Below are positions 3,833-7,996 of a stretch of 64,000 bases of DNA, piece by piece. The translations under genes were made by a program, and so were the position numbers. The first letter of the stretch is position 1; each line of letters starts with the position of its first letter. The notes beneath the pieces are model-generated. The model was not told where the DNA came from, searched no databases, and saw only the letters and a program-made list of their open reading frames with translations. The DNA is taken from contig NZ_CP159307.1 in assembly GCF_040448695.1 (NCBI RefSeq), positions 1,612,001 to 1,676,000 of the forward strand, read 5' to 3'. This DNA is from Dehalogenimonas sp. 4OHTPN (lineage in GTDB: Bacteria > Chloroflexota > Dehalococcoidia > Dehalococcoidales > Dehalococcoidaceae).

Positions 3833-3946
3833 ATGTGCAAAACCTGTCGGACACACCATCCGGAACTATACGCCGATAAGCCGGCCGCCAAACCGGCGCC
3901 CGCGAAAAAAGAAGCCGCCGCGGCGCCCGCCCCTAAGAAAAAGTGA
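3833..3946 (+). CDS. 37-residue CxxC, Lys/Ala/Pro-rich microprotein
   Basis: Starting at an ATG eight bases after a consensus AGGAGG, this ORF encodes 37 residues. The N-terminus MCKTCRTHH holds a CxxC plus two histidines, a possible metal or redox site. The rest alternates Lys with Ala and Pro (for example KPAPAKKEAAA), like the disordered basic tails of nucleic-acid-binding proteins. Promoter, ribosome-binding site and clean stop make it a believable gene. I do not recognise a family. It stands alone between an ATP-grasp gene and a convergent lipoprotein gene. Confidence 0.65.
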   Translation: MCKTCRTHHPELYADKPAAKPAPAKKEAAAAPAPKKK

Positions 3947-3964: not shown

Positions 3965-4762
3965 CTATCTTCCGGCCAAAGCCGCCTGCAGCACTTCGCC
4001 GGAAGCGGATTTGATGAAAACAACGGCCTGCAGATTGGTCTGGCTGCCGCCGTAGCTTGATTTGACTGAAAATTGTTGACCGGCGCCGGAGCCCAGGCCG
4101 CCGATAGCGACCGGGGGAAGAACGTCGCGCACCGTATAGTGGTGCTCGGCGGTGCCTAGGTCTTCATAGAGGACGACATATAGCTTCAGACCAGAAAGCG
4201 CCGCTGCCCCGGTATTGGTGACGGCGACAGTCAAGGTAATGCCGCCGGAAAAGCTGACGGCAGCGCTCAGAGCGACAGACGGCGGTGTAGCGAGCGCGGC
4301 GACGATTTTGGATGTCTGGGCGTTATAGGCGGACTGTTCGCTGCCCGCGCCGATGGCCGGATTACCGCCGTCGAAATAGATTGAAGGGAAGCCCCTCACG
4401 CCGTATTCGGCGGCTTTAGCCTCGGTGGCCGGGGTGGCGTATTTGTCCCCGGAATGGTACTGCAGCACAAGGAGTGTTCCCGGCCCAAGCTCGGCGGCGT
4501 GTTTTTCGATCGCTCGCGACGCGAACGGGCAGTAGCCTCACCAGTCCCCGGTGAACATTTCGGCCAGCACAACTCTGGTTTGAGCCGCCGCGGTAGCCGA
4601 CGGCGGCAGGCTAGCCGTTGGCGATGCCGATGGAGGCTGGGAAGGCGACACGGTAAACGGAGACTCGGTGGCGGGACTTGCTGCCGGGCCGCAGCCCGCG
4701 CCGGCGAGGGCGAGAGCGACGACGGCGGCTAACGATAAGACGAATTTCAACACTTCAACCAT
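3965..4762 (-). CDS. Probable selenocysteine-containing thioredoxin-fold lipoprotein (in-frame TGA)
   Basis: Two reverse-strand reading frames are in the same phase, separated by one TGA and 23 sense codons. Read through, they give one 265-residue protein. Residues 1-24 are a lipoprotein signal (lipobox LAGAGC), followed by a Ser/Pro-rich linker. The thioredoxin-like core begins EMFTGDW-(TGA)-GYCPFA, so TGA occupies the first cysteine of a WCxxC redox motif (position 75, resolving Cys 78). A cis-proline-like GFPSIYFDG follows, then a beta-rich C-terminal domain. A hairpin fitting bacterial SECIS lies just downstream of the TGA. A TATAAT (4784-4789) and GAGAGGG precede the ATG. The alternative is a single nonsense mutation, but the exact position and the intact 167-codon remainder favour selenocysteine. 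Confidence 0.7.
4511..4527 (-). promoter_or_regulatory. Candidate bacterial SECIS hairpin
   Basis: In the mRNA, eleven to twenty-seven nucleotides after the UGA, CGUUCGC pairs with GCGAGCG (seven pairs, one G-U) around a GUC loop. The loop starts 18 nt past the UGA and has G as its first base, which fits the published bacterial SECIS pattern (loop about 16-37 nt downstream with an early G). The hairpin also encodes the CPFASRA segment. No computed folding energy is available. Confidence 0.55.
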
Positions 4763-4841: not shown

Positions 4842-5105
4842 TCAGCGCAGGGCCGCCCGTCGGTATCTAAAATACATAGCTATGGCCGACAACAGAATGA
4901 TAAGACTGACGAGATTCGCCGCGACGATGACAGGATCCTTCAAATGCCAGCCGTACACACCCCATATCGTGACGCCGACGCAAAACTGGATCAGAGTCAG
5001 CAGGCTGATATCCTTTACCGATCTGGTCCGTCTCATTTTAATAATCTGAGGCACAAACCCAAAAGTCGTAAGTACAGCCGCCGCAGCGCCTACCAGATAC
5101 CACAT
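4842..5105 (-). CDS. SemiSWEET/PQ-loop small transporter
   Basis: An 87-residue protein with three membrane helices and the PQ-loop signature GFVPQIIKMRRTRSVKDIS near residue 18, matching bacterial SemiSWEET sugar transporters, which work as dimers of one triple-helix bundle. I chose the ATG giving MWYLVG because TGAGGAGT sits seven bases before it; an upstream TTG is possible but less likely. The substrate cannot be read from sequence. It lies upstream of the putative selenoprotein gene on the same strand, but that gene has its own -10. Confidence 0.8.
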   Translation of the reverse strand: MWYLVGAAAAVLTTFGFVPQIIKMRRTRSVKDISLLTLIQFCVGVTIWGVYGWHLKDPVIVAANLVSLIILLSAIAMYFRYRRAALR

Positions 5106-5212
5106 TCCGGTACTCCTCAACCTGCCGCTGACGGCATGGTTCGACCATATCGCCCGTTTGTGTCATCATTATAGCGAAACGAGCGATTTGAGGCATCGAA
5201 CAGGGGAACCGA

Positions 5213-5477: not shown

Positions 5478-5506
5478 TTGACCCGCGCCCTTATCCGGCA
5501 TAGAAT
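5478..5506 (+). promoter_or_regulatory. Promoter of the glutaredoxin leader
   Basis: TTGACC at 5478-5483, exactly 17 bases, then TAGAAT at 5501-5506. Transcription should start near 5513, giving a leader of about 125 nt before the glutaredoxin ATG. Confidence 0.6.
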
Positions 5507-5514
5507 TGTTCTCA

Positions 5515-5595
5515 GCAGGGGCGCGGCCATGGTGGAAGCCTGGAGGAGGGCGGACATCGTCTCGCGGCGATGAGCGGAGGCCGGCCGGCCCCTGC
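5515..5595 (+). other. Structured leader or small RNA upstream of the glutaredoxin gene
   Basis: GCAGGGGC (5515-5522) pairs with GCCCCTGC (5588-5595), continued by GGCC/GGCC (5525-5528 with 5583-5586). Inside, CATCG/CGATG closes an apical hairpin (5555-5572). The result is a compact, closed RNA domain just after the promoter. I recognise no riboswitch family. A 14-codon frame starts at the ATG at 5529 but has no good ribosome-binding site. Confidence 0.4.
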
Positions 5596-5637
5596 CCCAT
5601 TATTGCCGGAAGGATTAGCCGAATCTCGGAGGTCAGA

Positions 5638-5883
5638 ATGGCTGACGAAATCATCATGTACGGCACCACCTGGTGCCCCGATTGCGTGCGCGCCAAATCA
5701 GTCTTCAAACAACTGGGCGTAACCTATAAATGGATTGATATCGCTACCGACGCCGGCGCCGCGGCTGAGGTAGAACGCATCAACAAGGGTTTTAAAAGCG
5801 TCCCGACTATCCTCTTCCCGGACGGCGCCGTTCTGGTTGAACCGTCCCGAGTTGAACTCGAAAACAAATTGAGTCAGAAGTAA
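5638..5883 (+). CDS. Glutaredoxin-family protein
   Basis: An 81-residue thioredoxin-fold protein with the redox motif TTWCPDC near residues 10-16, the cis-proline segment SVPTILFPDG and no signal peptide, so it acts in the cytosol as a small disulfide reductase of the glutaredoxin/mycoredoxin type. The ATG follows GGAGGTCAG; the frame is open upstream but lacks a ribosome-binding site there. It has its own promoter and a structured 125-nt leader, suggesting control at the RNA level. The CPDC centre differs from the CPYC of classical glutaredoxins. Confidence 0.8.
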   Translation: MADEIIMYGTTWCPDCVRAKSVFKQLGVTYKWIDIATDAGAAAEVERINKGFKSVPTILFPDGAVLVEPSRVELENKLSQK

Positions 5884-6778: not shown

Positions 6779-6808
6779 TTGGCAGAACGATGCGTTATCC
6801 CGTATCAT
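6779..6808 (+). promoter_or_regulatory. Promoter of the cyclophilin lipoprotein gene
   Basis: TTGGCA at 6779-6784, an 18-base spacer and TATCAT at 6803-6808, about 30 bases before the ATG of the first cyclophilin gene. Confidence 0.5.
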
Positions 6809-6838
6809 AGAGACCGGTCTTTTTGCATCGAGGAAGAA

Positions 6839-7417
6839 ATGAACTTATATAGAAAACTGCTGGTCGTGGTGCCTCTGCTGGCGATCCTGACAGTTGGAGG
6901 CTGCGGCGACCCCAAACCCACATACGCCACCATCGAGACCAACCTGGGCAGCTTCAAGATAGAACTTTTCACCAAAGACGCGCCCAAGACGGTGGAAAAT
7001 TTCATCTCCCTGACCGAAAAGGGTTTTTACAACCAGAGCGCGGACAACAAAATCATCTTTCACCGCATCATGAAGGAGTTCATGGTCCAGACCGGCGACC
7101 CCGCCGGCACCGGCGCCGGCGGTCCGGGGTACACTTTTGCCGACGAGCTGCCGGTTAAAAGGTCGTACGAACCAGGAATCGTCGCCATGGCCAACCGTGG
7201 ACCTGACACCAATGGCAGCCAATTTTTCATCTGTACCGGAGCCCAAGCCAAAAACCTGGACCAGAACCCGGCTTATACCCAGTTCGGCATCGTCGTCGAG
7301 GGCATGGATGTTGTCCGAGCTATCGCCTCGGTGCCGGTTGTTCTGACCTCGACCGGCGAACTCTCCAAGCCCGTCGATCCGCCCTATATCATCAGGATCA
7401 CCATCGAAAAAACCTGA
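6839..7417 (+). CDS. Peptidyl-prolyl cis-trans isomerase, cyclophilin type, lipoprotein form
   Basis: A 192-residue cyclophilin preceded by a lipoprotein signal (lipobox LTVGGC near residues 17-22), so it should be anchored outside the membrane and assist folding of exported proteins. Catalytic landmarks are FHRIMKEFMVQTGDP, the GSQFFICT strand and the YTQFG segment. The ATG after GAGGAAG was chosen because it gives a proper signal peptide. A cytosolic paralogue follows 30 bases later, so the pair is probably a tandem duplication serving both compartments from one transcript. Confidence 0.9.
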   Translation: MNLYRKLLVVVPLLAILTVGGCGDPKPTYATIETNLGSFKIELFTKDAPKTVENFISLTEKGFYNQSADNKIIFHRIMKEFMVQTGDPAGTGAGGPGYTFADELPVKRSYEPGIVAMANRGPDTNGSQFFICTGAQAKNLDQNPAYTQFGIVVEGMDVVRAIASVPVVLTSTGELSKPVDPPYIIRITIEKT

Positions 7418-7447: not shown

Positions 7448-7996
7448 ATGATGATGCCCGAAGTCAAACGCTGGACCACCGCCCCTTCAATGCAGATCGA
7501 TCCTAATAAAAAATACACCGCCGCGATCGACACCTCCCTGGGCAGTTTCAAGATCGAACTGCTGGCCAAGGAAAGTCCCAAAACGGTGAACAACTTCGTC
7601 TTTCTGGCTGGCGAGGGTTTTTACGACGGCGTTATTTTCCATCGCATCATCGCCCCGTTCATGATCCAGACCGGAGACCCCACCGGCACCGGCGGCGGCG
7701 GTCCGGGCTACCGCTTCAATGACGAACTGCCGGCGAAGCATTCCTACGATCCCGGGATAGTAGCCATGGCTAACGCCGGCCCCAATACCAACGGCAGCCA
7801 GTTCTTCATCTGCACCGGCCCCCAGGCCCGCGGCTTGAACGGCTGCCCCAACTACACCCAGTTCGGGCGGGTTACCGAAGGTATGGACACGGTTCAGAAG
7901 ATCGCCGGGGTCAAAGTTAGCCGCTCGCCTCACGGTGAAATGTCCATGCCGCTTGATCCGCCGGTGATCAAAGGAATCTCCATAACCGAGGCCTGA
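7448..7996 (+). CDS. Peptidyl-prolyl cis-trans isomerase, cyclophilin type, cytosolic form
   Basis: A 182-residue cyclophilin without a signal peptide. It retains FHRIIAPFMIQTGDP, GSQFFICTG and YTQFGRVTEGM, the catalytic and substrate-binding signatures, and is closely similar to its upstream lipoprotein paralogue. Three ATG codons in a row follow AAAGGA, so the exact start could shift by one or two residues. It most likely shares the transcript of the preceding gene. Confidence 0.9.
   Translation: MMMPEVKRWTTAPSMQIDPNKKYTAAIDTSLGSFKIELLAKESPKTVNNFVFLAGEGFYDGVIFHRIIAPFMIQTGDPTGTGGGGPGYRFNDELPAKHSYDPGIVAMANAGPNTNGSQFFICTGPQARGLNGCPNYTQFGRVTEGMDTVQKIAGVKVSRSPHGEMSMPLDPPVIKGISITEA

Follow-up and report, generated by a model that had tools for sequence, protein, structure and literature searches.

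The window analysed here is a 64,000-nucleotide stretch of the genome of Dehalogenimonas sp. 4OHTPN (G000), which is a single contig of 1,750,158 bases. On its reverse strand, from position 4762 to 3965, there is a frame which, if one internal TGA is read as an amino acid, extends for 265 residues to a terminal TAG (Table 1). The TGA is the sole internal stop and lies at residue 75 in the translated context ...LAEMFTGDW-U-GYCPFASRAIE...; under the standard code the gene breaks into a 74-codon piece (4762–4541) and a downstream open reading frame (ORF) listed at 3965–4468. Translation could start at the ATG at 4762 or the GTG at 4753, the latter being better spaced from a Shine-Dalgarno-like stretch (AGAGGGA), and the conclusion that this is a selenoprotein gene is unaffected by the choice.

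Table 1. Features of the predicted selenoprotein gene, in window positions.
Feature	Position	Strand	Details and basis
Gene for predicted selenocysteine-containing thioredoxin-like lipoprotein	3965–4762	-	265 aa + TAG; start ATG 4762, GTG 4753 possible
Predicted signal peptide with lipobox-type Cys24	4691–4762	-	motif; G23 C24 G25 invariant in four orthologues; LAGC in G003
Ser/Pro/Thr/Ala-rich linker, poorly conserved	4577–4690	-	sequence, orthologue comparison
Thioredoxin-like domain, residues 63–145	4328–4576	-	profile match to thioredoxin 1fo5
In-frame TGA, predicted selenocysteine 75, first position of UxxC	4538–4540	-	frame, orthologues, dN/dS, alignment
Cys78, predicted resolving thiol of UGYC	4529–4531	-	invariant in 11-homologue alignment; absent from G707 Cys form (CGNS)
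Putative bSECIS hairpin	4511–4527	-	5' arm 4527–4521 CGUUCGC, loop 4520–4518 GUC, 3' arm 4517–4511 GCGAGCG
Pro126, predicted cis-Pro of thioredoxin fold (GFP)	4385–4387	-	aligned to Pro of 1fo5
C-terminal beta-sandwich domain, residues 160–265, seven strands predicted	3968–4285	-	AlphaFold2 model; conserved YED/VRD motifs

A sequence-only reading of this DNA had noted two same-phase reverse frames connected by one TGA and had taken the gene for a probable selenoprotein. The frames are as it described, with exact coordinates and no other internal stop, and the signal is real at this locus, but taken alone it is not rare: at nine sites in the window an ORF piece of 60 codons or more is linked through a TGA to 150 or more open codons in the same frame. 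Because the bare pattern is not rare in a GC-rich window, the case for a selenoprotein gene rests on comparison, and what raises 3965–4762 above chance is that three orthologues retain the TGA, that purifying selection acts before as well as after it, and that the codons which follow are frozen in the form of a hairpin. The other TGA-joined frames in the window look mostly like neighbouring genes or chance occurrences, and after inspection we rejected them as further candidates.

The same reading recognised a thioredoxin-like GDW-TGA-GYC active site and a cis-Pro region. Both are borne out by alignment of the family profile (A4) with the solved archaeal thioredoxin 1fo5 (E 1.5e-9), in which the CxxC and cis-Pro segment are in register, so that motif and profile alignment together place a UxxC in a thioredoxin-like fold. 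An AlphaFold2 model built from a three-row alignment only has pLDDT values mostly of 73–86 in the C-terminal domain and below 50 over much of the thioredoxin domain, and the latter part of the model is poor.

Two small reading frames flank the locus. A convergent ORF (MCKTCRTHHPELYADKPAAKPAPAKKEAAAAPAPKKK; window 3833–3946, forward strand), which has no Pfam match, ends right beside the 3' end of the gene. Upstream on the same strand, across a 79-nucleotide gap, there is a SemiSWEET/PQ-loop protein gene (window 4842–5120), a neighbour common to the related genome G007 and absent beside the gene in G003 and G004.

Conservation of the TGA codon and the downstream hairpin

Orthologues are present in three of the seven other Dehalogenimonas genomes (G007, G003 and G004, with 88%, 56% and 54% identity, respectively), and in each the TGA is again the only internal stop. 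The surrounding gene order is common to G000 and G007, and G003 and G004 share another location. Since the other four of the eight genomes do not have the gene, the genus can do without it. Among the four orthologues dN/dS is 0.125–0.21 over the whole part downstream of the TGA and 0.05–0.09 in the rest of the thioredoxin domain that follows it; synonymous sites are close to saturated in some comparisons, and the ratios are low even there. Purifying selection acts on both sides of the TGA, the strains carrying it show no decay elsewhere in the gene, and the combination of a conserved TGA with low dN/dS behind it excludes a decaying pseudogene.

Ten nucleotides past the TGA begins a hairpin, CGUUCGC-GUC-GCGAGCG, with a 7-bp stem and a loop that starts 17 nucleotides after the TGA. 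The published limits for bacterial SECIS elements are a loop of 3–9 nucleotides starting with G and then G or U, a stem of 4–16 bp, a spacing of 16–37 nucleotides and a minimum free energy of at most -7.5 (PMC13188914), and the hairpin lies within all of them (3-nucleotide loop starting GU, 7 bp, 17 nucleotides, -10.7 to -13.8 kcal/mol). The codons that it occupies (+4 to +9 relative to the TGA) are identical in the four species at all six positions, compared with 29 of the 105 other codons at which the amino acid is conserved (Fisher p = 0.0007). The more distant G365b and both copies in G428 retain the stem at equal spacing with loops of GGC, GGU or GGA, and the stems in G428 and G365 have compensatory changes, with UA exchanged for CG and CG for UA. 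Across the stem alignment 94.6% of cells are paired and the covariation score is 0.388, compared with 0.177 in shuffles and reached in 0 of 500, for a small sample of eight sequences of which four are close; at slid control positions pairing drops to 23–57%. The G365a hairpin is weak (-6.8 kcal/mol) and poorly paired. Folding energy in single sequences is unexceptional relative to shuffles (z between -1.55 and +0.09), and it is thus conservation and covariation that carry the argument for the hairpin. The Rfam model RF00031 (SECIS_1) has no match in the window genome or in the controls, and so is uninformative about bacterial SECIS elements; an Rfam scan of the gene region gave chance matches only.

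Selenocysteine machinery and the wider family

The window genome encodes a complete and contiguous selC-selD-selA-selB cluster, in that order (G000:C1:225969–230432), with scores of 71 bits for tRNA-Sec, 360 bits for SelD, 534 bits for SelA and 353 bits for SelB; all four of the genes for which the earlier reading would look are thus found together. They score above cut-off in all eight Dehalogenimonas genomes, and three genomes of a sister genus, probably Dehalococcoides, have no selB or selD above cut-off. SelD itself has an in-frame TGA (SGUAAKIGPGDL) followed by a hairpin in all eight (loci L023–L030). In most of the eight, L026 and other selD loci among them, this hairpin is AGGUC-CGGGU-GACCU, unlike that of the thioredoxin-like gene. 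Two reports on Dehalogenimonas (PMC4918011, PMC13390414) already describe selCDAB, a selenocysteine-containing SelD and a selenocysteine-containing formate dehydrogenase (FdnG), so that selenocysteine is not unusual in this host, contrary to what the sequence-only reading suggested for a Dehalococcoidia member. Our protein shares genus and machinery with these two selenoproteins, but is distinct both from SelD and from the respiratory formate dehydrogenase; a thioredoxin-type selenoprotein is not mentioned in the accessible text of the same reports (PMC4918011, PMC13390414), and apparently none has been described before in Dehalogenimonas.

Family profiles run against the class and the phylum, with as many as 400 genomes per search, found relatives outside Dehalogenimonas only in G365, G428, G673, G532 and G707. 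A contig search with the part of the protein after the TGA as query gave L081 and a cysteine-containing homologue from a KSB1 bacterium, L082; no viral relatives were found. At the codon in question the homologues carry either TGA, as in 12 of the 14 family members found, or cysteine. In each of the Chloroflexota genomes G365 (L046/L114), G428 (L048/L050/L115), G673 (L049/L116) and G532 (L090/L093/L117) the gene occurs as a tandem pair; every copy has TGA at the matching column, and the active sites diverge among UGYC, USGC, UEYC, UEFC, UWHC, UGVC and UTIC. The two cysteine forms, WCGYC with codon TGT in L082 and TCGNS with codon TGC in G707, where the second cysteine is replaced by serine, fall on separate branches of the family tree. 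Only five columns are invariant in an alignment of 11 homologues, namely the Sec/Cys position, the second cysteine and three other residues. All six wider-family genomes tested contain selA, including both with cysteine forms. The group is scattered in the phylum Chloroflexota and seemingly uncatalogued.

The G707 gene (L089, reverse strand from 1501) also has a hairpin-like sequence, GCCG-GUC-CGGU, near the usual SECIS position, which is perhaps a fossil SECIS left by a change from selenocysteine to cysteine, or merely reflects AGP codons.

Relation to catalogued families

Among catalogued selenoproteins the closest is GOS_C / NF045500, the 'Omp28-related selenoprotein' (PMC2398784; PMC13188914), which likewise has a thioredoxin-like fold with UxxC, is known in both Sec and Cys forms, and is of unproved function. 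The window protein differs in being shorter, anchored by a lipobox, encoded in Chloroflexota and furnished with a C-terminal domain of its own. Its match to NF045500 is 29.4 bits over model positions 33–140 of 377, far short of the curated cut-off of 200 bits, and the KSB1 cysteine homologue reaches 98 bits over positions 39–266. None of 294 Dehalococcoidia genomes sampled passes the cut-off. We read the window protein as representing a separate, distant subfamily rather than as a member of GOS_C/NF045500. Other NF045500 matches in Dehalococcoidia fall largely in a C-terminal part of the model, around positions 250–320, and were taken to be unrelated.

Similarity to the Omp28 family itself is weak and at the start of the model for PF11551 (25.8 bits, gathering threshold 34.9), and for NF033782, which is matched by 8 of 11 family members, it spans the active site at 34 bits of a cut-off of 150. 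Both scores are below the curated cut-offs. Omp28 proteins are outer-membrane lipoproteins, while Dehalogenimonas is not known to have a typical outer membrane. The MJ0307-family thioredoxins and protein disulfide oxidoreductases (TIGR00411, 1fo5, 1nho) align over the thioredoxin domain with active site and cis-Pro in register, but are small, cytoplasmic and cysteine-containing, and the window protein is predicted to be exported, to contain selenocysteine and to have an added beta domain. TlpA, ResA and similar extracytoplasmic thioredoxins linked to CcdA/DsbD resemble it in combining export with a thioredoxin fold, and in G003 and G004 a ccdA gene is directly downstream; it differs from them in subfamily, in having selenocysteine in place of cysteine, and in having no adjacent ccdA in the window genome.

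Proposed function and alternatives

We propose that SelB carrying selenocysteyl-tRNA would bind the hairpin right after the UGA and direct selenocysteine to residue 75, an insertion that we regard as almost certain. The ribosome would then continue past the UGA to yield a 265-residue lipoprotein anchored at the external side of the cytoplasmic membrane. In its thioredoxin-like domain Sec75 would attack and Cys78 would act as the resolving thiol, with the site held against cis-Pro126. The selenocysteine-containing extracytoplasmic oxidoreductase proposed by the sequence-only reading is supported by the sel cluster, the conserved TGA, the hairpin and the cysteine homologues, and a selenoprotein with a thioredoxin-type redox role outside the cytoplasm is very probably what the gene encodes, leaving aside its source of electrons.

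As to that source, G003 and G004 have a CcdA/DsbD-type gene (PF02683, 81 and 78 bits) on the same strand, 8 nucleotides past the stop codon of the selenoprotein gene (L101:6428–7114 and L102:6140–6829). CcdA proteins pass electrons from cytoplasmic thioredoxin to exported thioredoxin-fold proteins, and the simplest reading of this adjacency is therefore an exported selenocysteine-containing thiol-disulfide reductase fed by CcdA. The most likely role of the protein would be that of a thiol-disulfide (or selenenyl-sulfide) reductase outside the cytoplasm, which would draw electrons through a CcdA/DsbD-type membrane protein and hand them on to oxidised proteins or small molecules there, although we consider the reductive direction with CcdA as donor to be an evenly balanced call. 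It is quite possible that the selenoprotein is instead an isomerase, an oxidase, a peroxidase, a repair enzyme or a metal or metalloid binder. No ccdA is adjacent in G000 or G007, and none lies in the sequence read around the relatives in G365, G428, G673 and G532. The C-terminal beta domain could serve to bind one particular partner, and the variety of sites in the tandem copies (UGYC, UEYC, USGC, UWHC, UTIC) suggests different substrates. The CcdA pairing in two genomes speaks against these roles, as does the usually strongly reducing character of a selenocysteine UxxC site.

Far less probable is true termination at the TGA, in which case the gene would be a pseudogene, or would yield just a secreted stub of 74 residues, and the frame beyond it would be a relic or a gene in its own right. 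Standard gene calling would indeed split the gene, and TGA-joined frames are common in the window; however, four species retain the TGA, selection behind it is strongly purifying, nothing else in the gene is disrupted, the hairpin codons are frozen, the sel machinery is present and homologues have cysteine in the matching column, and conservation of the TGA in 12 homologues makes this reading very unlikely. We also reject the possibility that readthrough or a reassigned codon places tryptophan or some other standard residue at the UGA, as nothing was found in its favour, homologues carry cysteine and not tryptophan at this column, a selenocysteine cluster with tRNA-Sec is present, and published Dehalogenimonas genomes follow a normal code with UGA as selenocysteine in SelD and FdnG (PMC4918011, PMC13390414).

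With selenocysteine at residue 75, a thioredoxin-type protein is added to the selenocysteine proteins that the accessible text reports for Dehalogenimonas, SelD and FdnG (PMC4918011, PMC13390414), and CcdA is offered as a concrete partner for a selenoprotein class related to GOS_C, which has been without a known function since 2008. On this reading, thiol chemistry outside the cytoplasm should respond to the supply of selenium in half of the Dehalogenimonas species searched. Standard annotation splits or truncates such genes, so that a conserved redox protein of a genus used in bioremediation would be missed. A more speculative reading, which we hold to be less likely than not, is that these genes form a so far undescribed subfamily of exported Chloroflexota proteins with a thioredoxin fold, most of which use selenocysteine, and that it has expanded as tandem pairs with diverging UxxC sites. 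Coupled to CcdA in some organohalide-respiring Dehalogenimonas, they would make up a reducing pathway outside the cytoplasm that depends on selenium and may shield or mend proteins on the outer side, for example the reductive dehalogenase complex.

Further along the window, about 0.7 kb from the selenoprotein gene and on the opposite strand, there is a gene for a glutaredoxin-like protein with a WCPDC motif (5506–5883), whose true start is probably later than that listed. Beyond it, two adjoining and similar frames on the forward strand (6779–7417 and 7448–7996) look like cyclophilin-type peptidyl-prolyl isomerases, the first of them with a lipoprotein-like signal.
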